Below are positions 9,919 through 30,007 of a stretch of DNA of 39,848 nt, piece after piece (position 1 is the stretch's first letter; every line of letters starts with the position of its first letter). The translations under genes and the position numbers were made by a program. A model generated the notes under the pieces. It was not told the origin of the DNA and ran no database searches. It worked only from the letters and a program-made list of their open reading frames with translations. Source of the DNA: a virus; IMG/VR virus record IMGVR_UViG_3300022908_000069, positions 1 through 39,848 of that record; one strand, given 5' to 3'.

Positions 9919-11969
9919 CAGAGATTCGCCTTGCACGCGCCGCCAGCGCTGCCGGTCACGGTCACCGGTGCCGCTGCTGCCGCGCCATTGGTTACCGTGG
10001 TGATCGGCGTGCCGATGTCGACTGTGACGATCACGCCACCGCCACCGCCGTAGTTGCCGTTCCCGGCGACGCCCGCACCGCCGCCGCCTGATCCACCGTT
10101 GCCACCGTGGCCGCCGCTCGAATCAAGCGCGTTCGCTGCAGTCGCGCCCGTGAGGAATGCGTAGACGATGCGAATCTCTCCGCCGCCACCACCGCCGCCA
10201 CCACCGCCACCTCCGGCGCCGCTGCCCGTGCCTGCCGATCCGTTCGCGCCGGCGCCGCCGATGCATGCGATCGCACCGGCCGCCGTCGTAGCCGATCGGT
10301 TGATCGTCTTCGCGTAGATCGCCAGGCGCCCACCCGCGCCGCCGCTGCCGCCGCCCTTGCCCCCAGGTGGCGTGCCGCCCGTTGCCGATCGGCCGCAGCC
10401 ACCGCCGCCGCCGCCCGTGCCCGCGGCGACCGGATACAGTGCAACGGTCAGCGTTCCGGAATCCCAGATCTGCGCGACGTCGGTTGATGTCGCGTCGCGC
10501 TGGATGGACGTGGCCTTGTTCGTGCCACCGCCTACGCCGCTCGCTGCGCCCGCGCCTGCACTACCTGCGCCACCGGCGCCGGCCGTTGCGACGCCCGCAG
10601 CAGGACGCCCGCCGAGCCCACCCGCACGCACGTCGACCGCAGTACCTGCAGCACCTGCAGCGCCACCATCGCCGCCGAGCCCCGAGCGCGAGCCGAATGC
10701 GCCAGGCACGCCGGGTGTGTCTGCGACCGCTGCGCCGCCGCCGCATGTGATCGAGTTCGCTGTTGCCGCGGCAAGGTCGAGGACGCCGGACACGTACAAC
10801 TTGAAGCCGGCCATGTAGAGCTTGCCGCCTGTGCACGACAGGTTGTTCAAATAGAGATCGCGGGTTGCAACGTTGGCCGTGCCGATCGGCGAGCCGGCAA
10901 GCGGCGCAAAGCTGGGGCTGTTCGTTCCGTTGAGCGTGAGGTCGCCGTCGCTTCCGTCGCCGAAGTAGATCGCGAGAAAGTCGCTGCCTTCGGCCTGCCC
11001 ATTCGCGTCGCCCGTGAGGAACGAGCCCGGCGAGATCGTCTTGATGCCGGCGACGACCGTCAGCGTCACCGTTCGGGACGTCGTGTTGCCCCAGAAATCG
11101 GTGCAGGTGATCGTCGGCGTGTAGGTGGCCGCGAGCGCTGGATCGACGGCGCCGCTGAGCACACCGGTCAGATCGTCGATCGTGATTCCAGTCGGAAGAC
11201 TCGTAGCCGTCCATGTGATCGGGTCGGTGCCGGCTGGATTCTGAGAGAGCGCGTTATCGACGGCCGTCGCAGTCGTGGTGTAAGGCGCACCTGCAAGGCA
11301 CTTAGGTGGCTGCGCAATCCCGTCGAAAAGGATGTAGCCGATGCTCCGATTGATGACGAGCGGAACGTTGACCGTGACTGACGTTCCGCTACCCGCATCG
11401 GCTGCGGTGATCGTTACCATCGCCTTGGTTCCGATCGAACTCGCATACGTGCCCGTGATCGCGCCGGTCGTGCTCGAAATCGCCAGCGGACTTGGCAGGC
11501 CTGTCGCTGACCACGTGACGACACCGGTCGCACCGACAGCTACGAGGTTGCCGCGATAGGCGGACTGCGCGGTTGCTTCCGCGAGCGATCCGGCGAGCGA
11601 GAACGTTGCACCGATGGTCACGCCGAACACGACCGACACCGATGCGCCGCCGTTGCCCGCGTCGGCCGCGGTGAAGACAGGCTGGTAATAGGCCTGCGCG
11701 GTGCCGGCGCCGCTCCAGATTCCAGTGACCGGATCGATCGACGATCCGGCGGGCAATCCAGTTGCTGACCACGTCAGTGGGCCGACGTAGTTCACCGCCT
11801 GCATCTGGATCGAAAACGCCTGCCCCTTCGGCACGGCGTTCTTCGATGCGTAAAGCGGCGCAGCCGTGGTCGAGATCGGTGGCCACGGTGGCGTGATGAT
11901 GTGATACGTGTCGTCCAACGGCGTGACCGTCGGAGATATTTCGAGCAGGACCTTCGGCTTGGCGCTCAT
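9918..11969 (-). CDS. Ig-repeat and polyglycine tail adhesin
   Basis: 683 residues. Three consecutive Ig-like repeats lie at about 45-115, 125-205 and 215-305; each contains a variant of TWSATGLP followed by a DPVTGxxSG-like turn, typical of putative Ig domains. After a beta-rich linker, residues about 425-680 are strongly glycine-rich, with runs of 8 to 12 glycines separated by short hydrophobic motifs. The pattern recalls the polyglycine sandwich of T-even-like gp38 adhesins, although homology is not claimed. The start overlaps the tape measure stop (ATGA at 11966-11969) and the stop overlaps the next start (TGATG). Likely a surface-exposed receptor-binding or tail-tip decoration protein. 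Confidence 0.65.
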   Translation of the reverse strand: MSAKPKVLLEISPTVTPLDDTYHIITPPWPPISTTAAPLYASKNAVPKGQAFSIQMQAVNYVGPLTWSATGLPAGSSIDPVTGIWSGAGTAQAYYQPVFTAADAGNGGASVSVVFGVTIGATFSLAGSLAEATAQSAYRGNLVAVGATGVVTWSATGLPSPLAISSTTGAITGTYASSIGTKAMVTITAADAGSGTSVTVNVPLVINRSIGYILFDGIAQPPKCLAGAPYTTTATAVDNALSQNPAGTDPITWTATSLPTGITIDDLTGVLSGAVDPALAATYTPTITCTDFWGNTTSRTVTLTVVAGIKTISPGSFLTGDANGQAEGSDFLAIYFGDGSDGDLTLNGTNSPSFAPLAGSPIGTANVATRDLYLNNLSCTGGKLYMAGFKLYVSGVLDLAAATANSITCGGGAAVADTPGVPGAFGSRSGLGGDGGAAGAAGTAVDVRAGGLGGRPAAGVATAGAGGAGSAGAGAASGVGGGTNKATSIQRDATSTDVAQIWDSGTLTVALYPVAAGTGGGGGGCGRSATGGTPPGGKGGGSGGAGGRLAIYAKTINRSATTAAGAIACIGGAGANGSAGTGSGAGGGGGGGGGGGGEIRIVYAFLTGATAANALDSSGGHGGNGGSGGGGAGVAGNGNYGGGGGVIVTVDIGTPITTVTNGAAAAAPVTVTGSAGGACKANL

Positions 11970-14900
11970 ACCATGTGCACCAGCCGAGAGCCGCGCGGTC
12001 CGATCGGCCGGCCACCCATCGGCGGCGGCAGCGGCGTTGTCGGCGAGCCGATAGGGTCACCCGGCCGCGGCGGCATGGGGATGCTTCCGCCTGGGTGTCC
12101 AACGCGATCCGTTCCCGGGCCTCCGCCGAGCAGCGCATCGAGAATCTGCTGCAGCTTGTCGACGATGCTCTTCGTGTTTTCGCCGGCGCTGTCCTTCGCG
12201 TCCATGAGGTTCTGGATGTACTGCGCGGTCTGCGCATCGTTCATGCCGAGGCCCTTCTCGAACGCGGCGATGTCGACGTTCATGCCGGCGAGCACGTCCT
12301 TCCAGTCCTCTTCCTTGGCGCCGGCGATCTCGGCAACATCCTGCGCGAAGGTCTGGTATTGCTGCAACGTCGCCTGCTGCTGGAGCTGGTCGCGCTCCTT
12401 CAGCAGATCATTCAAGCGCGCCTGGTCGGATGCGCTGAGTCCGTTGCTGGACTGCGGGTTGCCCATGCCGCTCGCGTGCTGCTGCGCTGCGATGGCTTCG
12501 GCTTCGTCGAAGATCGGCTTGTATTGCGGCCCAGACGCGTACAGACGGCGCGCGATCTCTTCGACCTGCTCGGCAGTCGCCGTTCCTTCGCGCTCGCCCT
12601 GAAGCGCGAGCTGTAGCTTCTGCTCGTCGTTGTAAGGCGAGTTATCGCCGAGCAATCGGCTCATCGCCTCCGTGGCTTGCTCCGCGGCGGCCGACATCGC
12701 ATCGCCAAAACCGTGCACGGCGCTGCTCGCCGAATTCGCCTCGCCCTGGAGCCGGCTGATTTCTGCGTTGACGTCGTCGAGCGAACCGGTGTTCGTGATG
12801 CCGAGGCCGAACGCGGTCGACTGCGCCGAGGCCTCCAGTTGCTGCAGCAGCTGCGCGTACTGTTTCGCGGCGGCTTCGTGAATATTGGTCAGATCCTCGA
12901 CGGACGCGCCCTCAGCGCCGGCCGCCTTGGCCAGGTCGTTGGCCTGCTTGATGTTCGCCTGCAGCTGATCGGTCAGCTGCGATTCCGCGGCCTCGAAATC
13001 GTCGACGTACGTGGTCGATTTGAATTGCCCGACGAACTGGTCATAGGCCTGCTGCGACTGCGCGATGCGCTGCATCGTCTGGTCGATCGTTTCGCCGATG
13101 CCCTGCATGCCCTCAGCGAGGCCGAGGAACGCGGATAGCGATTGATCGCTGCCGAGCGCGAGGAACTTCGTTCCGTCCTGAAACATTTTCTGCACGCTGG
13201 CGAGGTCGTTCGTCACCGCGGCCAGGGTGTCCGCGTCATCTCGGAATGCGTCGACCGCGTCGTTCAATCTGGCGTCGAACTGATCGAGGATCGCCAGCTC
13301 GTTTTCGGAGACCAGCCGTTCCTCGAATTGCTGCTCGGTCTCGTTCTGGTAGGTCTGGTCGCCGATCGTGGTTGTGGTCGCACCGGTCGGCTGGCCATTC
13401 TTGTCGAACACCTGCGCGAACGATCCGCCGACGACGTCGCCGACCTTCGCGTTGAACTCTTCGGCGAACGAATCGTTGTTGCGCTTCAGCGCATCGTAGA
13501 AATCCTGCACCGCCTTCAGCGTGTCGGCGTCGAGATCGCTGTGGACCGTCCAGTTTTTATCCGACGTGAAGAAACCGCCCTTTGATCGGATGTTCGCGTC
13601 AACGCCGCCGCCGCCACCATCCGGACCGATGCTCTCGGTCATCGTGCCGCCCTGCAGCTTCGGCTTCTGATGACCGAACAGCCGTGACACGATCGAGCTG
13701 CCAGTCAGGATCGATGCGAACTGATCGCCGAACCCGATGCCACGCAGGAACTTGTCGGACAGGTCGACTCCGATCGCGCCAGGTGCCAGCGCGCCGGCGA
13801 TCGGGTTTGAAAACGCCGACGAGAAATCGAAGCCGTTGCTTGCCTGCCAGCCTTGCTTGAAGAGCTTGTTGTCTTCAGCCATGCCCGCGATGATCAGACC
13901 GATGATCGGGATCCAGCTGGCCACCGCGGCGAGCGTGCCGCCTGCGGCTGTCGCGGCTTCCGAGCTCGCTGCGATGGAGTCCGCGCCAACGTTCGCCGCC
14001 GTCGCGCCTTCGAAACCGGCGCCGGCAATGCTGCCGTAACTGGCAAGGTCAGGCCCGACAACGTCGCCGGTGAGAAGGCTAAGGTAGTCCGTGCCAGTGC
14101 CGACCGCGAAGCTCGATGCGGCTCCGCTGGCAGCGCCCGCGCCGCCACCGAAGATGGAGCTGATCGCGCCGGAGAATCCGCCCTGTGAAAATCCAGTCCA
14201 CAGTTTCTGGCCAGCACTGAGCCAGCCAGGCGCAGACGTCAGGTAGCCCCCGACCCCGGCGCTCTGCCCGGCCGCGCCGGCCACCGCGGCGGCACCGCCG
14301 CCGCTAGCGCCGCTGAACAGACCGCCAAGCGTCGGCAGCAGCGAGAATCCAGCCGAGCCGCCGAAGATGCTGTCGAGCAGCGGGTTGATGACGGCCAGCT
14401 TCAGAAAGTAGCTGAGGATCGCCTCCGACACCTGTTTGGCGACATCCTCGAGCGCCTCCATCGCGCTGCCGCCTTCGACCAGATCCTTCGCGAAATCGTC
14501 GGCAACCGTCGTGCCGGCCTGCTGGAAAATATCTATCCAGTCCTTTGCGGCCTGCTGGTTCGCCTTCAGTTCGTCATCCAGCGCTTTATGCGCGGCAACG
14601 TCGCCGGTGATCGCGTCGACTTCCGCTTGGCTGAGCTCCGGGCTCGCGCGAAGGTGCGCCTCGTACTGCTTTCGCGCTTCGTTCTCGGCGGCGATGATTG
14701 CCGTCAGCTGCTCGTGAGCCGTTCCGGTCGTCGCGATCAGCCGGGTTTCATCATCCAACTTGATATGCAGCTGGCCAACGATGTCGGCCTGATCCTTCAA
14801 CCTGTCAGTGGTCTGGGTCAGCGAGCTGACAAGGCCCGCTTCCCCTTGCTGCCACAGTTCGAGCACCCGCTCGAACGGAACACCTTCGATCGCGGCCTTG

Positions 14901-16765
14901 TTCGCAGCCGCGGCCAGATCGTCCATGCTCTTGTTGTAGTCACTGATGGCCTTTTGGTACGGCGACCCGAACTTGGCGTTGATGCCGTCGACCGCAGACT
15001 GGAGCTTTAGCAACGACTCCGCGGAATTGTCCTGATAGGCCTTGGTTTCCTTGACCTTGGCGGTGTAGCTGCCCTGTGACTTGTCGGCCGCATCAAGGGC
15101 TACCTGAAGTTTCTGGAGCGCCGCGCTCTCCTGCGCGTGCACGATCGTTGCGTCAGCACCGTCGGCGATCATCTGCCGCGCGGCTTCATGAATACGATCA
15201 ACGCCGGCGAAGTACTTCGCCATGTTGCCTTCGATCTGGCCGCCGACGAATGACCTCGCCGCGTCCGTCACGGCGGAAGCGAATTCGCGCATATCAGCGG
15301 ACGCGGTGACTACCGTCTGATGCTGCTTGTCGAGCTTCGCCTGGAGATCGGCAAGCTCTGTCTTCAGGTCGGTGATCGCCTGCGCAGCTGTGCCGGCGCC
15401 GAGCGTTCCATAGCCCCCGGCATTCGGAACTGACGCCATCGACTTGGCGTTTTCTTCGTTGAGCTTTTGCAGCGCTTCAAGGGCCACGATGGTGGCCTTC
15501 GAATTGTCGATCTGTTTTTGCGTGACCTTGTCGAGCGAATCGACACGTAGGAGATCCGTTTGCACCGAATCCGCTGTGACGTTCTTCAGCAGGTCCTCCG
15601 CCGTGCGAAGCGTGTCAGCGGCTTTCGCTGCTTCGGTCTCGTGCGTGGCCAGCTCGTAGATGCCAACACCTGCCAGAGCGATCAGCCCGGGCAAGCCACC
15701 TATGACGGCAAGCAAGCTTCCGCCGGCCGCGGTGACTCCCGCCATTGCCACTTCGGTCGCAGCCAAGCCGCCAGTCATCTCGGCCCATATGGAAGCACCG
15801 ATGACTGCTTCCGCGGAAAGTGACGCCAGCGAAGCGGCAGCGCCCACGGCCCATTGCGCGAGCTTGAATTCGGCGAGCAACTCAATGACCGAAATCAGCG
15901 TGCCGAGATTGTTCGCGAGCGCGAGCACCGTCTTTCCGGCGGCATCGAGTCCTTCGCGGAAGCCCTCGCTGTCCATCGCGTCGACAAACAGATGCGAGAT
16001 CGTCTCGATCGCAGGCGCGAGCGCCACGCCGATCTGATTGCCGAACCCGAGCATGCGAGCACCGATCGCATCAAGCGCGTCGTTCGCCTCGAGCAACGCC
16101 TTGTTGTCCTGGTCGGACAGGACGATGCCGAAGACGCGCGCCTGGTCGGTCGCTTTCTGGAAACCGTCGCCGAGCTCGTTGAAGAGCTTCGCGTTCTGCG
16201 CCGCGCCGCGGCCGAACAGCTCCATCATGATGGCGGTCTTGTTCGTGCCGTCCGCCATCTCGGACAGGTGCTGTGTGGTGACCTGGATCAGTTGATCCGG
16301 ATCCTTCATCAGCTCCTTGACCTGCGTCGACGAGATGCCGAGCGCGCGGAAGGCTTCAACCTGCTGCGCGCTGCCGGCCGCGGCTTCGGTGGCGGATCGC
16401 TCCAGCTTCACGAACGCGCCGGCCGCATCGTCCAGACTGCCGCCCGTGGTGGCCGCCACGAACTGGATCGTCTGCAGGGTTTCCGCCGATGCGCCGAGCG
16501 ACGCCCTCAGCTTGTCGATTTTCTCGGCGGTCTCGATCGCCTCGATGCCGAGCGCGCCGAGCTCCTGAATGCCAATGCCGATGCCGAGCGCCGCAGCGAT
16601 CCCTTCGATCGTGCTCTGGATGTTTTCGCCGGCTTCATGCCATTGGCGTTGAATCTCCTTCGTGGCTTTGGAGTTCTCGGACTGCACCTTCCCGAGGTCG
16701 CTGACCATGTTCGCGATATTCGCGAGCACATCGATGTTGATCGCGCCGGCGGAGTTCGTTGACAT
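11966..16765 (-). CDS. Tail tape measure protein
   Basis: 1599 residues, the longest gene of the window. It sits after the frameshifting tail chaperones, the diagnostic position. The N-terminus is helical (about 1-50) followed by hydrophobic segments near 55-75. A long alanine- and glutamine-rich coiled-coil body follows, with a hydrophobic helical block around 270-380, a Gly/Ala-rich stretch near 840-950, and a proline-rich end. Tape measures set tail length at about 0.15 nm per residue, which would give a tail near 240 nm and hence a siphovirus (inference). Upstream of its ATG only a weak GGAAT ribosome site is present, because the U tract of an intrinsic terminator (16777-16803) occupies the leader. 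Confidence 0.95.
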   Translation of the reverse strand: MSTNSAGAINIDVLANIANMVSDLGKVQSENSKATKEIQRQWHEAGENIQSTIEGIAAALGIGIGIQELGALGIEAIETAEKIDKLRASLGASAETLQTIQFVAATTGGSLDDAAGAFVKLERSATEAAAGSAQQVEAFRALGISSTQVKELMKDPDQLIQVTTQHLSEMADGTNKTAIMMELFGRGAAQNAKLFNELGDGFQKATDQARVFGIVLSDQDNKALLEANDALDAIGARMLGFGNQIGVALAPAIETISHLFVDAMDSEGFREGLDAAGKTVLALANNLGTLISVIELLAEFKLAQWAVGAAASLASLSAEAVIGASIWAEMTGGLAATEVAMAGVTAAGGSLLAVIGGLPGLIALAGVGIYELATHETEAAKAADTLRTAEDLLKNVTADSVQTDLLRVDSLDKVTQKQIDNSKATIVALEALQKLNEENAKSMASVPNAGGYGTLGAGTAAQAITDLKTELADLQAKLDKQHQTVVTASADMREFASAVTDAARSFVGGQIEGNMAKYFAGVDRIHEAARQMIADGADATIVHAQESAALQKLQVALDAADKSQGSYTAKVKETKAYQDNSAESLLKLQSAVDGINAKFGSPYQKAISDYNKSMDDLAAAANKAAIEGVPFERVLELWQQGEAGLVSSLTQTTDRLKDQADIVGQLHIKLDDETRLIATTGTAHEQLTAIIAAENEARKQYEAHLRASPELSQAEVDAITGDVAAHKALDDELKANQQAAKDWIDIFQQAGTTVADDFAKDLVEGGSAMEALEDVAKQVSEAILSYFLKLAVINPLLDSIFGGSAGFSLLPTLGGLFSGASGGGAAAVAGAAGQSAGVGGYLTSAPGWLSAGQKLWTGFSQGGFSGAISSIFGGGAGAASGAASSFAVGTGTDYLSLLTGDVVGPDLASYGSIAGAGFEGATAANVGADSIAASSEAATAAGGTLAAVASWIPIIGLIIAGMAEDNKLFKQGWQASNGFDFSSAFSNPIAGALAPGAIGVDLSDKFLRGIGFGDQFASILTGSSIVSRLFGHQKPKLQGGTMTESIGPDGGGGGVDANIRSKGGFFTSDKNWTVHSDLDADTLKAVQDFYDALKRNNDSFAEEFNAKVGDVVGGSFAQVFDKNGQPTGATTTTIGDQTYQNETEQQFEERLVSENELAILDQFDARLNDAVDAFRDDADTLAAVTNDLASVQKMFQDGTKFLALGSDQSLSAFLGLAEGMQGIGETIDQTMQRIAQSQQAYDQFVGQFKSTTYVDDFEAAESQLTDQLQANIKQANDLAKAAGAEGASVEDLTNIHEAAAKQYAQLLQQLEASAQSTAFGLGITNTGSLDDVNAEISRLQGEANSASSAVHGFGDAMSAAAEQATEAMSRLLGDNSPYNDEQKLQLALQGEREGTATAEQVEEIARRLYASGPQYKPIFDEAEAIAAQQHASGMGNPQSSNGLSASDQARLNDLLKERDQLQQQATLQQYQTFAQDVAEIAGAKEEDWKDVLAGMNVDIAAFEKGLGMNDAQTAQYIQNLMDAKDSAGENTKSIVDKLQQILDALLGGGPGTDRVGHPGGSIPMPPRPGDPIGSPTTPLPPPMGGRPIGPRGSRLVHMV

Positions 16766-16776
16766 CGGGATTCCGG

Positions 16777-16803
16777 AAAAGAAAAGGGCCGCGAATGCGG
16801 CCC
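16777..16803 (-). terminator. Intrinsic terminator between tail chaperones and tape measure
   Basis: Perfect 7-bp GC stem: 16797-16803 pairs with 16786-16792, loop 16793-16796. On the minus strand it is followed by TTTTCTTTTC. It lies entirely in the 47-nt gap before the tape measure gene and would lower tape-measure transcription relative to the tail tube. Confidence 0.75.
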
Positions 16804-16812
16804 ATTGGGGTT

Positions 16813-17351
16813 TCAGTTTTTCTTGCCGTACTTGCGTTGGAAGTCGGCGGCGATCTCGCGCGCGCGCTGACCAGCAAGTTCGTTGTAGAGCGTCGAATCC
16901 TTATCCTTGAGCGAGAAGTGCGCGACGATCTCGACGATGTCGTAGACGGTCATTCGCTCTTCGAGCTCGGACGGAAGGCATCCGAATTTCTCGATCGCGA
17001 CGTCTACGAAGAAGCTTCGCTGGCCGTCGCTGAAGAGTTTTTTCCGGCTTCCTCCACGGTCGGTTTCTGGAAGCTGTTCACGGCGACCTGGTAGGCGTGG
17101 ATCTGGTCGGCATCCCACTCGTCGTTGATGGACTTGACGGTGAGGAAGTTCTTACCTTCCTCGTTGATCACGGACGCGGCGATCAGCTTCAGGTTCAGGG
17201 TTGCCCAGGCAACGGCGCCCGGCGCTTCACCCGGCGCGCAGCCCTTGCGGAGTTCGTCGAAGTACTGCGCTCGATCGAGCACCTTCATGCGTTTCAGCGT
17301 GACGGTGTCGGTCTTGTCGCCGTATTTGATTTCAATGGTTTCGGTCTTCAC
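16813..17351 (-). CDS. Tail assembly chaperone, -1 frameshift product (lambda gpGT type)
   Basis: The fusion product reads 105 codons of the upstream chaperone, slips back one base at the heptamer A AAA AAC (17043 to 17037) and continues for 74 codons in the second frame, giving 179 residues. The second-frame part starts LFSDGQRSFFVDVAI and ends with a basic GKKN. It has no good start of its own (an internal ATG at 16953 would leave only 46 residues), which supports frameshifting. In lambda and many siphophages the shifted form brings tape measure and tail tube together during assembly and is absent from virions. The open frame itself extends to 17118. Stop lies 47 nt before the tape measure gene. 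Confidence 0.8.
17004..17351 (-). CDS. Tail assembly chaperone, zero-frame product (lambda gpG type)
   Basis: 115 residues from a GTG at 17351 with AAGGA about 6 nt upstream on the minus strand. Sequence starts KTETIEIKYGDKTDTVTLKR, a small beta-rich domain followed by helices, as in tail chaperones located between tail tube and tape measure. The last ten codons after the slippery heptamer give SSATASEASS and then TAG. Most ribosomes would make this short form. Acts in the cytoplasm during tail assembly, holding the tape measure protein in soluble form (known for the family). Confidence 0.85.
   Translation of the reverse strand: MKTETIEIKYGDKTDTVTLKRMKVLDRAQYFDELRKGCAPGEAPGAVAWATLNLKLIAASVINEEGKNFLTVKSINDEWDADQIHAYQVAVNSFQKPTVEEAGKNSSATASEASS
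17037..17043 (-). other. -1 programmed frameshift slippery site (A AAA AAC)
   Basis: On the minus strand the zero frame reads GGA AAA AAC TCT. The heptamer A AAA AAC obeys the X XXY YYZ rule exactly and shifting by -1 joins the zero frame to the second chaperone frame, which remains open for 74 codons downstream while the zero frame stops at 17004-17006. Confidence 0.85.
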
Positions 17352-17447
17352 GGTGTGTCCTTATGGAAGATCGACCGACAGCGGCGCCGAGGAACGCGCA
17401 CCGCCATGCGCAACACCGCTGCCAGTCGAAGCGGGGTCAGCTAGCGG

Positions 17448-18008
17448 TCAATGGAACTCGGTGCTGAGTTCGCCGGCGACGACCCACTGCGACCCGCCCG
17501 TCCACTGGATGGCAAAGTCGGCGCGGTCGATGTCGTTGTCGGTCTTCTTCGGCGAGAACTGGCTGATGTAGCCACGGCCGATCGTCCCGTCGCGCGTCCA
17601 TTTCGGCGTCGGGGTTGCCGTGTCCATCGGCGGGGTCAGCACGTCGTCGACGCCTTCCAGCGTCGGCTCGTCGTCGCTGCCGCTGTCGCCGACAAACACG
17701 TCGACGCCGTCGATCAGGCCGCCGGCGCAGGCTTCCTGCAACGACTTCAGTTTCTGATGGCCAGGGATCGACTTGATCAGGATCAGTTCGCCCGACGCTT
17801 CGTCGGGGGCGATGCGGCCCGCGGCGTATTCGTCGTGCGTCTTGGAGTCCATGTTCGACTTGTCGATCTTCGACGTCTTACCGCCGCCGACAGCCGACAG
17901 ACCCTTCAGGGCCGGGACCGCGATGATGACTGCGGGGTCTACGGTGCGATCGACGATGAAGACGACCGAGCCGACGGTGGCTTTCGACTGCGTGTTGTTC
18001 GTAGGCAT
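17448..18008 (-). CDS. Major tail (tube) protein
   Basis: 186 residues from the ATG at 18008, chosen because AGGAAAA lies just upstream on the minus strand; a longer frame opens nine codons earlier but lacks a ribosome site. The protein is soluble. It has the composition of siphophage tail-tube subunits and lies between head-completion genes and the tail chaperones. The C-terminal part (RADFAIQWTGG) ends in a beta-rich segment. It polymerises into the tail tube (family knowledge). A strong intrinsic terminator lies immediately upstream, so its own promoter or antitermination must feed it. Confidence 0.85.
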   Translation of the reverse strand: MPTNNTQSKATVGSVVFIVDRTVDPAVIIAVPALKGLSAVGGGKTSKIDKSNMDSKTHDEYAAGRIAPDEASGELILIKSIPGHQKLKSLQEACAGGLIDGVDVFVGDSGSDDEPTLEGVDDVLTPPMDTATPTPKWTRDGTIGRGYISQFSPKKTDNDIDRADFAIQWTGGSQWVVAGELSTEFH

Positions 18009-18033
18009 TGGCTTTTCCTGCGGGGTTTCGGGC

Positions 18034-18057
18034 AAAAAAAACCCCGCAAATGCGGGG
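18034..18057 (-). terminator. Intrinsic terminator upstream of the tail tube gene
   Basis: Textbook structure on the minus strand: stem 18052-18057 with 18042-18047 (CCCCGC/GCGGGG), loop of 4 nt, followed by eight consecutive T (18041 to 18034). It sits in the 75-nt gap between the tail-completion gene and the tail tube gene. Confidence 0.85.
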
Positions 18058-18083
18058 TGGGTTTCATCTGTACGTCTGCTGCC

Positions 18084-18482
18084 CTATCGGGACGTCCAGA
18101 AGCTGAAATCTCGGCTGTCGCGCCAGCGCTTGGTATCCGGCTCGACGCGACGGCCGTTGTACGCAATGCACCGAATGCCGGCGCCGTATTGGTTCATTGC
18201 CGCGGTGCTCTGCAGCGCTTGCTCGATCGCCCATGCCAACGCCTTCGCGCCGTCGTTGTCATCGGCCCAGGCATCGATCTGGATCCGTTCGTTCGTCGCG
18301 CGCGGCGACGTGTCCATCACGTTCTCCGGCCTGCCGACGACCATGCAGTACGTGGCCGCCGGCATCGGCGTGTCCTGCGGAATCTCGTCCGGGTACAGCT
18401 TGCAAGCCGCGCCGGCACCGATCAGCGCACCGACGCCGGCATTCGCCGAAACGATCGCGAACAGGATTTCATCGGCGGTCAT
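18084..18482 (-). CDS. Tail completion protein (DUF3168-like)
   Basis: 132 residues starting MTADEILFAI. The ATG overlaps the upstream stop (ATGA at 18479-18482), which rejects the much longer open frame through it. The pattern of an N-terminal helix, a PDEIPQDTPMPAATY segment and a TNERIQIDAWAD strand is that of the DUF3168/gp17-like tail terminator family. In HK97- and SPP1-type phages this protein caps the tail tube and joins it to the head. Last gene of the head-tail joining block, followed by an intrinsic terminator. Confidence 0.8.
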   Translation of the reverse strand: MTADEILFAIVSANAGVGALIGAGAACKLYPDEIPQDTPMPAATYCMVVGRPENVMDTSPRATNERIQIDAWADDNDGAKALAWAIEQALQSTAAMNQYGAGIRCIAYNGRRVEPDTKRWRDSRDFSFWTSR

Positions 18483-18958
18483 CGTTTCGACTCCTGCGTC
18501 GCGGCGGCCACGCCATCGGCCAGAGATGCGCGGAACACTTCCAGCGCCTCCGTTTTCTTCGTTTCGAACGCCGGCCGAAGGAACGGCTCGGCGCGCATCT
18601 TCGACGTGCCGTACTCGACGAACACGCCGTAGTACGCATCCCCGATCACGCGCACGCGCTGGTTCGCGCCGCGCAGGATGCGCAGCACGCGCTTCTCTTT
18701 CGCGCTGTACCTGATCTTGCGCACGCTCACGACGTAATAGGCCGTGCTCGCATCGCGCCCCTTGCGGCGGAACACCGCGATCGCATCGCGCAACGCGCCC
18801 GATCGCACCGGCACACGCACGATCGCCTCCGCCTTGAATACGGCAGCTGCGGCGAGCGTTGCCTTCCACAGGTATTTCTTACCGATCTTCTCGCTGAATC
18901 CCTTCAGCGCTTCCCCGAGCTCGGCCAGGCCACCGACCCGCACCTCGATTGCGCTCAT
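18479..18958 (-). CDS. HK97 gp10-like head-tail joining protein
   Basis: 159 residues. The family hallmark is the C-terminal motif VEYGTSKMRAEPFLRPAF at about 117-134, preceded by VPVRSGALRDAI at about 49-60, both typical of HK97-gp10-like proteins. These act at the neck or tail terminator during head-tail joining. It overlaps both neighbours by 4 nt (ATGA), so stoichiometry is probably linked by translational coupling. Confidence 0.9.
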   Translation of the reverse strand: MSAIEVRVGGLAELGEALKGFSEKIGKKYLWKATLAAAAVFKAEAIVRVPVRSGALRDAIAVFRRKGRDASTAYYVVSVRKIRYSAKEKRVLRILRGANQRVRVIGDAYYGVFVEYGTSKMRAEPFLRPAFETKKTEALEVFRASLADGVAAATQESKR

Positions 18959-19284
18959 CCCGCATTTACGCCTTCCGAGCAGTACAGGAGCATCCAGCCG
19001 CGGCGAGTCCGATCCTTCATGACGGCGGCGATGTTGAAAATGCTGTCGTCACAGCGCGCGCGCATCTTCGCCTTCACGCCAGGCAGGTAGCGGATGGTGA
19101 TCTTCGTGGTCACCTCGCTCTGCTGCTGCGACGCCTCGAAGAACTCGCGGCCACTGACCGGCAGAATTTCTGCGGGCACGCCTTCGGCGAACACTGCCGG
19201 GGTGCGCACTACGCCGCCCGTCGACGTCCGCGTCTCGACCCAATCGTCTATGTCGATGAAACTGTTCAGCCGCGTGATCTGCAC
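18955..19284 (-). CDS. Head-tail adaptor / head closure protein
   Basis: 109 residues. Sequence contains RLNSFIDIDDWVETRTSTGG and later EVTTKITIRYLPGVKAKMR, the layout of the phage head-tail adaptor family (SPP1 gp16/HK97 gp7-like head closure). It plugs the portal-connector channel after packaging (family knowledge). Position between the gp6-like connector and the gp10-like gene fits exactly. Confidence 0.85.
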   Translation of the reverse strand: MQITRLNSFIDIDDWVETRTSTGGVVRTPAVFAEGVPAEILPVSGREFFEASQQQSEVTTKITIRYLPGVKAKMRARCDDSIFNIAAVMKDRTRRGWMLLYCSEGVNAG

Positions 19285-19285
19285 G

Positions 19286-19774
19286 TCAGATCCCGAGGTT
19301 CGTCCGAAACTGGTGCAGCAGCGTCTTGGATCCGTTCGGCAGCTCGACAGCCGTCGTCACACCGACGGCGATCACGCTGTCCTGCCGGTTCTCGAACAGA
19401 TCGCCGCACGCGAGCAGGCAAGCCGCCTGCATGATCTCGTTCATCACGAGGCCGCGAATCGTCATGGCGTACGCGCGAAACGCATCCGCACGCGCGCCGG
19501 TGACCGCATCTAGCGCGATCGCTCGATGCGTGCAGTCAGTCAGCGTGCTCGCCGCATCCTCGCTCACCTTGATCGAAGCGAGTGCGTCGGTCAGCGTCGT
19601 CGGCGCCACCACGATCGCGGCAGCAAGTGCGGTCGCATCGGCGTACATGAAGCGATTCATGTACTCGGCGGCGGATCGCTCCGCGGCATCGAGGTAAAGC
19701 TGGATGAGCGCGTCCTCATTGGTCGCGTACACCCGGCAATGCTTTCGTGCCGTCTGGAGGTCGATGATGCTCAC
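19286..19774 (-). CDS. Head-tail connector (HK97 gp6-like)
   Basis: 162 residues, mostly helical. The N-terminus DLQTARKHCRVYATNEDALI and the helix AERSAAEYMNR are characteristic of gp6-like connectors that form a ring under the portal. An insertion of about 35 residues rich in Ala/Thr (near 48-85) makes it longer than the usual 100-110 residues. Only 1 nt separates it from the head closure gene and 5 nt from the upstream gene. Confidence 0.85.
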   Translation of the reverse strand: MSIIDLQTARKHCRVYATNEDALIQLYLDAAERSAAEYMNRFMYADATALAAAIVVAPTTLTDALASIKVSEDAASTLTDCTHRAIALDAVTGARADAFRAYAMTIRGLVMNEIMQAACLLACGDLFENRQDSVIAVGVTTAVELPNGSKTLLHQFRTNLGI

Positions 19775-19779
19775 GGGCG

Positions 19780-20130
19780 TCAGCCCGCCTTGTTCTTCGG
19801 TTCGGACGCTTTCTTGTTCGCCGGCTCCGATGCCTTTTTCTGACCGCCATTGCCTTCGGTGTTTGCCACGTCTTCATCCTCATTCGGAGCTGCTGGTTTG
19901 GTTTCGCTGGCGTGCACGATGCCGCTGCCCTCGCCCCCGATCAGCAGAGCGCGTCCGTGATTCAATTCGACGTGCTCGCCTGCGGGTAATTCCACGAGTC
20001 CGTTTCGCGCGAGCTGCAGGCCGCGCTGACGTTCGACCTCGATCTCGTCGCCCGCATTGACGTGGCCACTGCCGTTGAGAAATTCGCGAAGGACTTTGAC
20101 CTTCAACGTTTCGACGTTTGGTGCGTTCAT
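19780..20130 (-). CDS. Small post-capsid protein with charged tail
   Basis: 116 residues. A small beta-like domain (KVKVLREFLNG to ARNGLVELPAG, 10-51) of a type often found between capsid and connector genes in HK97-like phages is followed by a hydrophilic tail with two AxxKKASEP-like repeats and a lysine-rich end. Function unknown; possibly a head accessory protein. The ATG lies directly after the U tract of the terminator at 20131-20158 and has no Shine-Dalgarno sequence; the only AGAAGG sits inside the hairpin. Confidence 0.65.
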   Translation of the reverse strand: MNAPNVETLKVKVLREFLNGSGHVNAGDEIEVERQRGLQLARNGLVELPAGEHVELNHGRALLIGGEGSGIVHASETKPAAPNEDEDVANTEGNGGQKKASEPANKKASEPKNKAG

Positions 20131-20158
20131 AAAAGAAAGGGCCGGTTGCCCGGCCCTT
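20131..20158 (-). terminator. Intrinsic terminator after the major capsid gene
   Basis: Minus-strand hairpin with stem 20150-20158 pairing 20137-20145, loop TTGC (20146-20149), followed by TTTCTTTT. It lies in the 55-nt gap between the capsid stop and the next ATG, which directly abuts the U tract. It probably makes a capsid-only mRNA 3' end with partial read-through. Confidence 0.75.
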
Positions 20159-20185
20159 CTCCATTGCTGTGACGGTGAGCGCCGC

Positions 20186-21454
20186 TTACGGCGCGGGGTC
20201 GGCCGGGAACGTGCCGTAGACGAAGGACTGCGGGCGGTACACGCAGAGCGCCAGGCGCTCTTCCGCACGGATCGTGACCATGTTCTTCACGAAGTTGTCC
20301 TGGTCTTCGGTCGAGACCTCGACGGCCGCATCCTCGCGGTCGAACACCTGGGCCGCGATATCGAGCGCGCCGACAAGGAACTTGCCGACCGGCATCGCAT
20401 TGGTGTCGATGACCGGCAAGCGCCACATGCGCGAGACACCGCCGTCGGTGACGCTGACCCAGATGTATTGACCGGTCGTGTCCTTCTTCAGCGACAGACG
20501 TTCCCAGTCGTTCGGGTTCAGCACGATGCCGCTCGCGCGGTACTCGGCGACGCGCACCTGCGTGATCGCGTGCGACAGCACGTCGATGCCGGTGTCGCCC
20601 GTCTTCGTGCGCGTGGTGTCGTATGGCGTGGCCTGCGGAATCAGCCCGAGCAGGTTGTTGCCCGTGCCGTCGCCGGCGAGGATCTGCGCTTCCTCGACAT
20701 ACTTCAGGCCGTAGATCGCGCGGCCGTTGATGTAGCTCTGCAGGGCCGGGATGTCGGCGAGCACCTGCTTCGACGCCCGGAACCAGTGAGCGATGGTCTT
20801 GACCGTAGCGGTCAGCAGCGTGAAGGACAGATCGGACTGCGGCTTCAGCAGACCTTCGCCGACAGGACCGGCCATGTTCTGGAAGCCCGACTCCTGCACG
20901 TACTCAATCGCGTTCGAACCGGTGCGACCCGGTGCGATGAGATCGCGAATCATGAAAGGACGCTGCGGCGCGGTGATGATGCCCTCGATGCGATCGGGAC
21001 GGATCGCAACGCCAACGCCGCCGGTGCCCGTGGTCAGGCTGGTGATGTTCGTCACCGCCTTCAGGCCGCCCAGGCGAGCCGTGCCACGACCGTTCTTGGT
21101 CAGGTTGGCGAACGACTCGTGATCGGTCAGCTGCTCGCCGAACGACTTGCCGGCCTCGACGTCGCCATTGCCGCCGCGACGCGCGAGTTTCTGCTCGATG
21201 TCGAGCATGCGCGCGTTGTATTCGTTGCCGGCCTTCGACAGCAGCTCCAGCGCCGCCTTCGTGTCATCGAGCACCTTCCCGTGCTGCGCGATGTCGGCAT
21301 TCGCCTTCTCGACGAACGTCTTGATCTCGGTGTCGCGCTTGCCGAGCGCTTCGATCACCGACTTCATTTCGCGCTGGAGGTCGCCACGATCGGCAACACC
21401 TTCATCCTTCCGCTCGCGGATGCCATCCGCAGCAGGGTTTTCTTTGATCAACAT
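20186..21454 (-). CDS. Major capsid protein, HK97 fold
   Basis: 422 residues from the ATG at 21454, which has AGGA about 7 nt upstream; the open frame extends further but that part only mirrors the protease gene. Residues 1-105 are highly charged and coiled-coil like, the scaffolding delta domain that the prohead protease removes. The body starts around the NLTKNGRGTARLGG segment and contains the family landmarks RPFMIRDLIAPGRTGSN, AHWFRASKQVLADIPAL, and GIVLNPNDWERLSLKKD. Assembles the icosahedral head. Expression is probably boosted by a terminator right behind the gene, giving a discrete transcript. Confidence 0.95.
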   Translation of the reverse strand: MLIKENPAADGIRERKDEGVADRGDLQREMKSVIEALGKRDTEIKTFVEKANADIAQHGKVLDDTKAALELLSKAGNEYNARMLDIEQKLARRGGNGDVEAGKSFGEQLTDHESFANLTKNGRGTARLGGLKAVTNITSLTTGTGGVGVAIRPDRIEGIITAPQRPFMIRDLIAPGRTGSNAIEYVQESGFQNMAGPVGEGLLKPQSDLSFTLLTATVKTIAHWFRASKQVLADIPALQSYINGRAIYGLKYVEEAQILAGDGTGNNLLGLIPQATPYDTTRTKTGDTGIDVLSHAITQVRVAEYRASGIVLNPNDWERLSLKKDTTGQYIWVSVTDGGVSRMWRLPVIDTNAMPVGKFLVGALDIAAQVFDREDAAVEVSTEDQDNFVKNMVTIRAEERLALCVYRPQSFVYGTFPADPAP

Positions 21455-21464
21455 GGGTATTTCC

Positions 21465-22151
21465 TCAGTTTGAGAGAGAGAATCCGGCGAGCTGCTTGTG
21501 CAGTGCCGATAGCAACGCGCTGCTCTCGCCCGGATCCCCCAGGTGTTCGAGCTGCTTGTAACCGCCCTCCGCAATGCGGATGGCCTGCGACTTCGAGAAC
21601 CCTTGCTCCCGCAAGAGCGCTTCGAATTCGCGCAACGTCGGAAGTGACCCGTGGGCCAGCTTCGACTTGATCGTGTCGACACGCGCTTCGTCGTTCGCCG
21701 GGAATGTCACCGGCGACACTTCGGCCAGGTCCAGCGCGGTAAGCGTGCGGATGCCCGTCTTCTCGTCATATGACGAGGCGCGCACGTAGTAGCCGATGGA
21801 CAGGCCGCTGATGATCCCGCGCTTCATCAGCGCGTAGACCTCGCGCGCGCGGTTGACGTCGTCCTTCAGCAGGAAACCTTCAACGCGAAGACCGGTGTCG
21901 TCTTCGACGAGCGAGGAATACCCGCCGATTGGCTCGTCGCTGTTGTGATTCCACAGCGCCGGCAGGATGCGGCCGAGGTCGGCGATCTCCGCCAGCGACT
22001 GCGTGAACGCACCCTTCGCGACGATCTCGTTGTAGCTGTCGACGACACCGAACACCGAGCCATAACCGGAATAGGTTCCGTCGTCGGCGACCACGTTTGC
22101 CTTGAACGCGAAGGTCCGGAATTTGAGGGACCGGCCATCTTTACGCTGCAT
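21465..22151 (-). CDS. Prohead protease, HK97 U35 family
   Basis: 228 residues from the ATG at 22151, which lies inside the last codons of the portal gene (11-nt overlap). The catalytic pattern is visible: His69 in ALWNHN and the serine motif SGLSIGYYV at 115-123, followed by EVSPVTFPANDEA around 150, all diagnostic of U35 prohead proteases. It cleaves capsid delta domains and itself during maturation. The remaining C-terminus (about 170-228) is helical and is expected to be removed. Confidence 0.92.
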   Translation of the reverse strand: MQRKDGRSLKFRTFAFKANVVADDGTYSGYGSVFGVVDSYNEIVAKGAFTQSLAEIADLGRILPALWNHNSDEPIGGYSSLVEDDTGLRVEGFLLKDDVNRAREVYALMKRGIISGLSIGYYVRASSYDEKTGIRTLTALDLAEVSPVTFPANDEARVDTIKSKLAHGSLPTLREFEALLREQGFSKSQAIRIAEGGYKQLEHLGDPGESSALLSALHKQLAGFSLSN

Positions 22152-29362: not shown

Positions 29363-29387
29363 AAACCCGGCTTTCGAGGCCGGGTTT
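29363..29387 (-). terminator. Hairpin terminator between Q-like gene and lysis genes (tR'-like)
   Basis: Stem of 6 GC pairs (29379-29384 with 29366-29371) extended by three A-T pairs, loop 29372-29378. Minus-strand 3' side runs into TTTTT, plus-strand side into TTT. It can act in both directions: ending the + strand gene at 29350, and stopping leftward late transcription unless antiterminated. Confidence 0.75.
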
Positions 29388-29491: not shown

Positions 29492-30007
29492 TTATCCGAC
29501 GATCTGTGAGCGGCCAGCAAAGAGTCCCAACAGCCATGAATGTGCAAGTTCGAGTTCAGTGCGGTAGCTCCTCGCAGACAGCTGTGTGCCGAGCACCTCA
29601 TTTGCCAGATTGACCTTGAGCGTCCGGTCGATGCTCCCATTGCAATATTCCATCCGAAGTATCACGGCCTGCGTTGCGTTGGACCGGTACAGATCGATCA
29701 CAGCGAGTTCGACGGCTTCAGCCGCGGCCGGAATAGCCATAGGCTTGATGCCGTTTTTGCTCTTCGCTCCATAGCAAACGATCTTGGGCGCGAGTTCGCG
29801 TTTCAGCTTCCCGTCAACGTCGCGATATGTTCGGTACTTCGGTGCTCGCCTGCGTGTCTGTCGGTCGTAGCGCGTCGATGGCGCCCCGCTGACGAGCGGA
29901 TGCACCGAGGCACGATCTTGCACCTCGTCGTCACCGTCTACGGCGACACCGACGCCGAAGACACGTCCCCAATGGTGGAGCTGTCGTTTCAAGTCGCCGA
30001 ATTGCAT
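29492..30007 (-). CDS. Q-like late antiterminator
   Basis: 171 residues. The N-terminus MQFGDLKRQLHHWGRVF and the C-terminal region (AVELAVIDLYRSNATQAVIL, then EYCNGSID and a final AHSWLLGLF) follow the architecture of phage Q/ArpU-type late regulators, whose C-terminal half resembles a sigma region 4 helix-turn-helix. The gene is the last of the replication operon, and the late genes start some 500 nt further on behind a hairpin terminator, exactly as Q, pR' and tR' are arranged in lambda. The residue-level identity of the family is not certain. Overlaps its upstream neighbour by 19 nt. Confidence 0.6.
   Translation of the reverse strand: MQFGDLKRQLHHWGRVFGVGVAVDGDDEVQDRASVHPLVSGAPSTRYDRQTRRRAPKYRTYRDVDGKLKRELAPKIVCYGAKSKNGIKPMAIPAAAEAVELAVIDLYRSNATQAVILRMEYCNGSIDRTLKVNLANEVLGTQLSARSYRTELELAHSWLLGLFAGRSQIVG

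Follow-up and report, generated by a model that had tools for sequence, protein, structure and literature searches.

Hairpins in the late operon of a temperate siphophage: likely intrinsic terminators before the tube and tape measure genes and a candidate split ribosome-binding site after the capsid gene

The window analyzed here, a stretch of 39,848 nucleotides, is the complete IMG/VR virus record of a temperate siphophage (IMGVR_UViG_3300022908_000069). It encodes an integrase, a CI-like repressor, a CII-like activator, a DnaB helicase, and lysis genes. The structural genes lie on the minus strand in the order terminase, portal, protease, HK97-fold capsid, connectors, tube, chaperone, and tape measure. 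The major capsid protein, of the HK97 fold family, is encoded at 20186..21682 (phrog_10, E=3.2e-81). A gene 3′ of it, at 19780..20130, encodes a 116-amino-acid protein with no assigned function and weak phrog_21804/2616 matches; its N-terminus is level with the starts of homologues in relatives. The major tail (tube) protein is encoded at 17448..18008 (phrog_158, E=9.5e-7), the tail chaperone at 17004-17351, and the tape measure protein at 11966..16765 (phrog_8462, E=9.6e-25), all on the minus strand. Near the end of the chaperone gene, GGAAAAAAC at 17045-17037 (minus strand) is followed by an overlapping frame at 16813-17118, together a probable −1 frameshift of the G/GT type. An Rfam search of the window returned zero matches.

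Three leftward hairpins with U-tracts, which a sequence-only reading had placed after the capsid gene, before the tube gene, and before the tape measure gene, were found at those positions: T1 (20159-20131), T2 (18058-18034), and T3 (16803-16777). A separate hairpin/U-tract finder returned them as the three strongest such sites on the minus strand. Only one further site on that strand, at 29385-29365, came near them; shuffling the strand 60 times gave an expectation of about 0.1 sites at its weaker energy threshold. On a d'Aubenton-Carafa-type scale, in which positive values are terminator-like, T1, T2, and T3 scored 40, 46, and 42, respectively. Between the capsid and tape measure genes, four gaps exceed 40 nt; the three hairpins fill three of them, and the fourth, between tube and chaperone, is without a U-tract. 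T2 (18034..18058, minus strand) consists of a 7-bp stem (18058-18041), an ATTT loop, and 8 U's, and T3 (16777..16803, minus strand) of a 7-bp stem (16803-16786), an ATTC loop, and UUUUCUUUU; counterparts of both were found in relatives. The T1 stem lies at about 20159-20136 with UUUCUUUU (leftward).

Relatives were collected by capsid searches, which gave 72 IMG/VR and 8 genome loci, and further loci were taken from around the capsid genes of the HK97-like phage mEpX1 (80 loci) and of D3 (80 loci). L002 was the only relative of the tube protein found (40% identity), and it also carries a related tape measure gene. Searches for close relatives of the tape measure protein in IMG/VR and of the tube protein in INPHARED gave nothing usable.

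Between the capsid and tape measure genes of the relatives, 104 terminator-like sites (88 nonredundant loci) were found, with 4.5 expected from shuffles. Nearly all (97/104) lie no more than 70 nt 5′ of an open reading frame of at least 70 amino acids. The sites cluster ahead of the tube and tape measure genes, with a minority after the capsid gene or before the chaperone gene, and major tail proteins were encoded after the pre-tube sites in 26 of 28 cases tested. Sites of the T2 and T3 types scored as terminator positive in 82 of 96 instances. Their stems vary by lineage (CCCCGC/GCGGGG, GCCGGC/GCCGGC, CCCGGCC/GCGCCGGG, and, in L002, CCGGCC/GCGCCGG), and the U-tract stays adjacent to the stem despite these sequence differences. 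In T2 and T3 themselves, a GC-rich hairpin is directly followed by a U-tract, and such sites are more frequent than chance predicts and are kept in relatives. Such a pattern is expected of conserved intrinsic terminators, and the identification of T2 and T3 as intrinsic terminators is well supported by the comparison of sequences. Since terminators are already annotated in the mEpX1 record (NC_019709) at the pre-major-tail and pre-tape-measure junctions, the observation of terminators there is not new.

The sequence-only reading had also proposed that at each hairpin the U-tract takes the place of a normal ribosome-binding site. This does not hold generally: T2 is followed by the Shine-Dalgarno sequence AGGA (18019-18016), 7 nt 5′ of the tube ATG. 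Between T3 and the tape measure start, there is a weak GGAA alone.

Around T2, a second structure was noted. The T2 3′ arm and the first three U's (18048-18039) are a perfect 10-nt complement to 18028-18019, a downstream repeat of the T2 5′ arm that touches the tube Shine-Dalgarno sequence. The resulting alternative hairpin (18048-18019; 10 bp, −17.8 kcal/mol) is predicted to be more stable than the T2 terminator. D3 and L234 have a similar downstream copy of the 5′ arm, and L010/L020 have a weak one. A general terminator/antiterminator switch at T2- and T3-type sites was considered and rejected, since p<=0.05 was reached at just 7 of the 51 sites before tube genes and 2 of the 21 before tape measure genes.

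Internal terminators of phage late operons have precedents. The single late operon of mEpX1, an HK97-like lambdoid phage, has predicted terminators after the capsid gene and ahead of the major tail and tape measure genes, and that of the P22-like phage L has a predicted terminator at the end of the procapsid module; both phages differ from the window in host and tail module. In phage SPP1, potential stem-loop terminators bound the late gene clusters, and no additional late promoter was identified (PMC6316719). SPP1 has a Gram-positive host and belongs to another phage lineage, and the portion of that account consulted reports no split ribosome-binding site. The role of intraoperon terminators in phage late operons is an acknowledged open question, with none known (PMC8022706). 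The authors of the phage L study, describing such terminators as without known role, proposed either that they terminate in part or that they halt transcription initiated without antitermination.

T2 and T3 bracket the tube/tail-chaperone cassette inside the late operon. Unmodified RNA polymerase, from leaky transcription or host read-through in a lysogen, would stop at these sites, and late antiterminated polymerase would mostly pass them, leaving some 3′ ends. It had been suggested that the hairpins set protein ratios, with much capsid and tube and little tape measure. That suggestion fits T3, which would keep tape measure levels low, but not T2, where a stop before the tube gene would lower the abundant tube protein relative to the scarce connectors. 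Because a pre-tube terminator opposes a high tube copy number, we favor the stopping of nonantiterminated transcription as the role, together with a degree of attenuation ahead of the tape measure gene.

Passage of the hairpins by a Q-modified polymerase is plausible by analogy with lambdoid phages. No Q protein was recognized in the window. The additional terminator-like site mentioned above (29365..29385, minus strand; −12.4 kcal/mol, score 15) lies at the start of the lysis/late region, and an orphan 171-amino-acid gene at 29492-30007 precedes the lysis genes. We take the site to occupy the place of lambda tR′ and the gene that of lambda Q. The 29492-30007 protein matches only a PHROG of unknown function; no Q family, Pfam match, or relative in IMG/VR or INPHARED was recognized for it. 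It is possible that this gene encodes a new antiterminator.

The layout after the capsid gene differs from that at T2 and T3. A Shine-Dalgarno-like GGAG (20159..20162, minus strand) stands directly 5′ of the T1 hairpin (20137..20158, minus strand), which has a 9-bp stem, AAGGGCCGG/CCGGCCCTT (20158-20150 with 20145-20137), and the GNRA loop GCAA. A spacer, UCUUUU (20131..20136, minus strand), connects the stem to the AUG at 20130, and this spacer plus the last two U's of the stem make up what had been read as the T1 U-tract. The linear distance from GGAG to AUG is 28 nt, and about 6 nt remain with the 22-nt hairpin folded out. A Shine-Dalgarno sequence lies 5′ of the hairpin with the AUG at a functional distance, and there is none between hairpin and AUG.

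This arrangement recurs in relatives. The sister of the window, L003, shows the order GGAG(G), a stem of about 7 to 10 bp, a GNRA loop, a short spacer (6 to 7 nt in the conserved form), and ATG, and so do a Pseudomonas group, Paraburkholderia phage IPK, and the HK97-like set. At the corresponding position, GGAG or a near match is kept in L003, the L028-L038 group, L086 (IPK), and the HK97-like set, and it is weak or absent in L026, L039, L045, and L053. Three features co-occur: a spacer of 5 to 10 nt, GGAG or a variant 5′ of the hairpin, and no Shine-Dalgarno sequence 3′ of it. Relatives with longer spacers have an ordinary Shine-Dalgarno sequence 3′ of the hairpin. Predicted hybridization to the 16S tail was favorable 5′ of the hairpin and about zero 3′ of it in the split layout, and the reverse in the longer-spacer relatives. 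A DNA pattern written for the element gave no hits in three genomes, but it was so narrow that even the known copies would have escaped it.

The stem is conserved as a structure and covaries strongly. Among 22 relatives, 99.4% of cells were paired and both sides had changed in 7 of 8 pairs, with 44 both-side-changed cells versus 16 in shuffles, counts in which pairing is favored by the choice of the best hairpin in each leader. Within the capsid clade of the window, a GNRA loop was found in 20/20 split-layout sequences and 0/20 ordinary ones, in a class table corrected by hand (L015 and L048 assigned to ordinary, L037 unusable, and the L026 start called too far downstream). Loops such as UCUC also occur in the D3 relatives, which have an ordinary Shine-Dalgarno sequence. 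About four changes suffice to explain the split layout on the capsid tree, which limits the independent support for it. A statistical link between layout and loop was not established on this tree, with few independent contrasts, nearly all in the same direction, and their association is suggestive only.

Two further features of post-capsid hairpins were noted among the relatives. In the D3-like loci L173-L228, just 3′ of the capsid stop codon, the hairpin loop is GAGA or TCTC between near-identical phages, as if inverted. In a distant group (L057-L071, about 40% capsid identity), the hairpin, placed 13 to 45 nt after the capsid stop codon, is mostly of −24 to −40 kcal/mol and has a U-rich tail.

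The three hairpins are not one kind of element. The designation of all of them as intrinsic terminators stands for T2 and T3, where position is kept, the U-tract is adjacent, and the sequence turns over; it does not extend to T1, where same-clade relatives lack the U-tract and keep GGAG-hairpin-ATG. We consider it probable that T2 and T3 are genuine intrinsic terminators and that T1 works mainly in translation, as a split ribosome-binding site. The T1 part of this reading is drawn from the conserved layout, the covarying stem, and the match to T4 genes 38 and 25. In those genes, a hairpin between the Shine-Dalgarno sequence and AUG cuts the effective spacing from 22 to 5 nt and from 27 to 11 nt, as shown by experiment, and destabilizing the hairpin lowers initiation (PMC3014915). 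At T1, the effective spacing would likewise fall, from about 28 to 6 nt. T1 differs from the T4 sites in belonging to an unrelated phage lineage and gene, in its GC-rich stem with a GNRA loop, and in its position directly 3′ of the major capsid gene. In Escherichia coli thrS, the ribosome also accommodates a folded hairpin within its binding region (PMC3936740); there the hairpin parts the Shine-Dalgarno sequence from an upstream single-stranded part, whereas the T1 hairpin lies between the Shine-Dalgarno sequence and AUG.

We infer that the hairpin after the capsid stop folds out 22 nt and brings GGAG to about 6 nt from the AUG, from which the ribosome would start the 116-amino-acid gene. The hairpin probably also blocks 3′-to-5′ decay of the capsid message. 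The U-tract in the spacer of the window would give T1 some terminator capacity, and through it the spacer may fold back to pair with GGAG. In the predicted fold of the window, GGAG is mostly paired with the U-rich spacer (unpaired probability, 0.05 to 0.17), which counts against the split-site reading; in L031, L077, and L086, GGAG lies outside the hairpin itself. T1 may serve in the window both as a terminator and as a split site.

A rival account is that all three hairpins are intrinsic terminators, attenuators that step transcription down and are passed by antiterminated polymerase, with the GGAG 5′ of T1 incidental. The window scores of T1 to T3, all between 40 and 46, agree with it, as do the U-rich tail of the D3 post-capsid hairpin and the decision of the mEpX1 depositors to mark the post-capsid hairpin, too, as a terminator. 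The U-tract of T1 is not kept in relatives, however: only 1 of 16 same-clade homologues with the split layout was terminator positive (median score, −33). Among HK97-like homologues, 21 of 27 were positive, weakly. Uniform termination also leaves unexplained why a Shine-Dalgarno sequence is missing 3′ of the hairpin exactly where GGAG precedes it, and its pre-tube terminator is at odds with the required protein ratios. We regard this account as rather unlikely. It is improbable that the hairpins mainly stabilize mRNA, a role in which they would block 3′-to-5′ exonucleases and define the 3′ ends of the processed capsid and connector messages but would hardly affect transcription or initiation. 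A strong post-capsid hairpin in nearly every relative, usually without a U-tract and with varying loop and Shine-Dalgarno layout, is what stabilization would produce, but it would account neither for the strictly adjacent U-tracts of T2 and T3 nor, at T1, for the constancy of GGAG and of spacer length. Module borders, where the hairpins sit, are expected places of exchange in mosaic phages, yet functionless GC-rich palindromes, whether chance products or recombination linkers, are very hard to reconcile with about 0.1 sites expected in the window, with the excess over shuffles in relatives, and with hairpins that share structure and position only, where linkers would share sequence.

With T1 read as a split site, the post-capsid hairpins of both the window and mEpX1 are reinterpreted: what the annotation of an HK97-like genome calls a terminator shows conserved features of a translation element. 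The two other hairpins are kept as predicted terminators in lineages whose tails differ, each at its own fixed junction, and termination and translation, two questions that annotation had merged, become separable. Should the split site prove real, it would be a natural and recurring case of ribosomes starting across an intact hairpin. T4 genes 38 and 25 were the only other phage split sites of this kind found documented, and a literature search covering few subscription journals found no report of a split site with a GNRA loop 3′ of phage capsid genes. A broader proposal, which we hold tentatively, is that the post-capsid hairpin of HK97-fold siphophages is a widespread GNRA element that both seals the capsid message and forms a split site. 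In lineages with a U-tract (the window and the HK97-like phages), it would act as a three-way switch among termination, a closed Shine-Dalgarno sequence, and split-site initiation. A second GGAG-hairpin-ATG junction was seen in mEpX1 (L090 7385-7425), between the major tail gene and the chaperone gene, where it is annotated only as a stem_loop.
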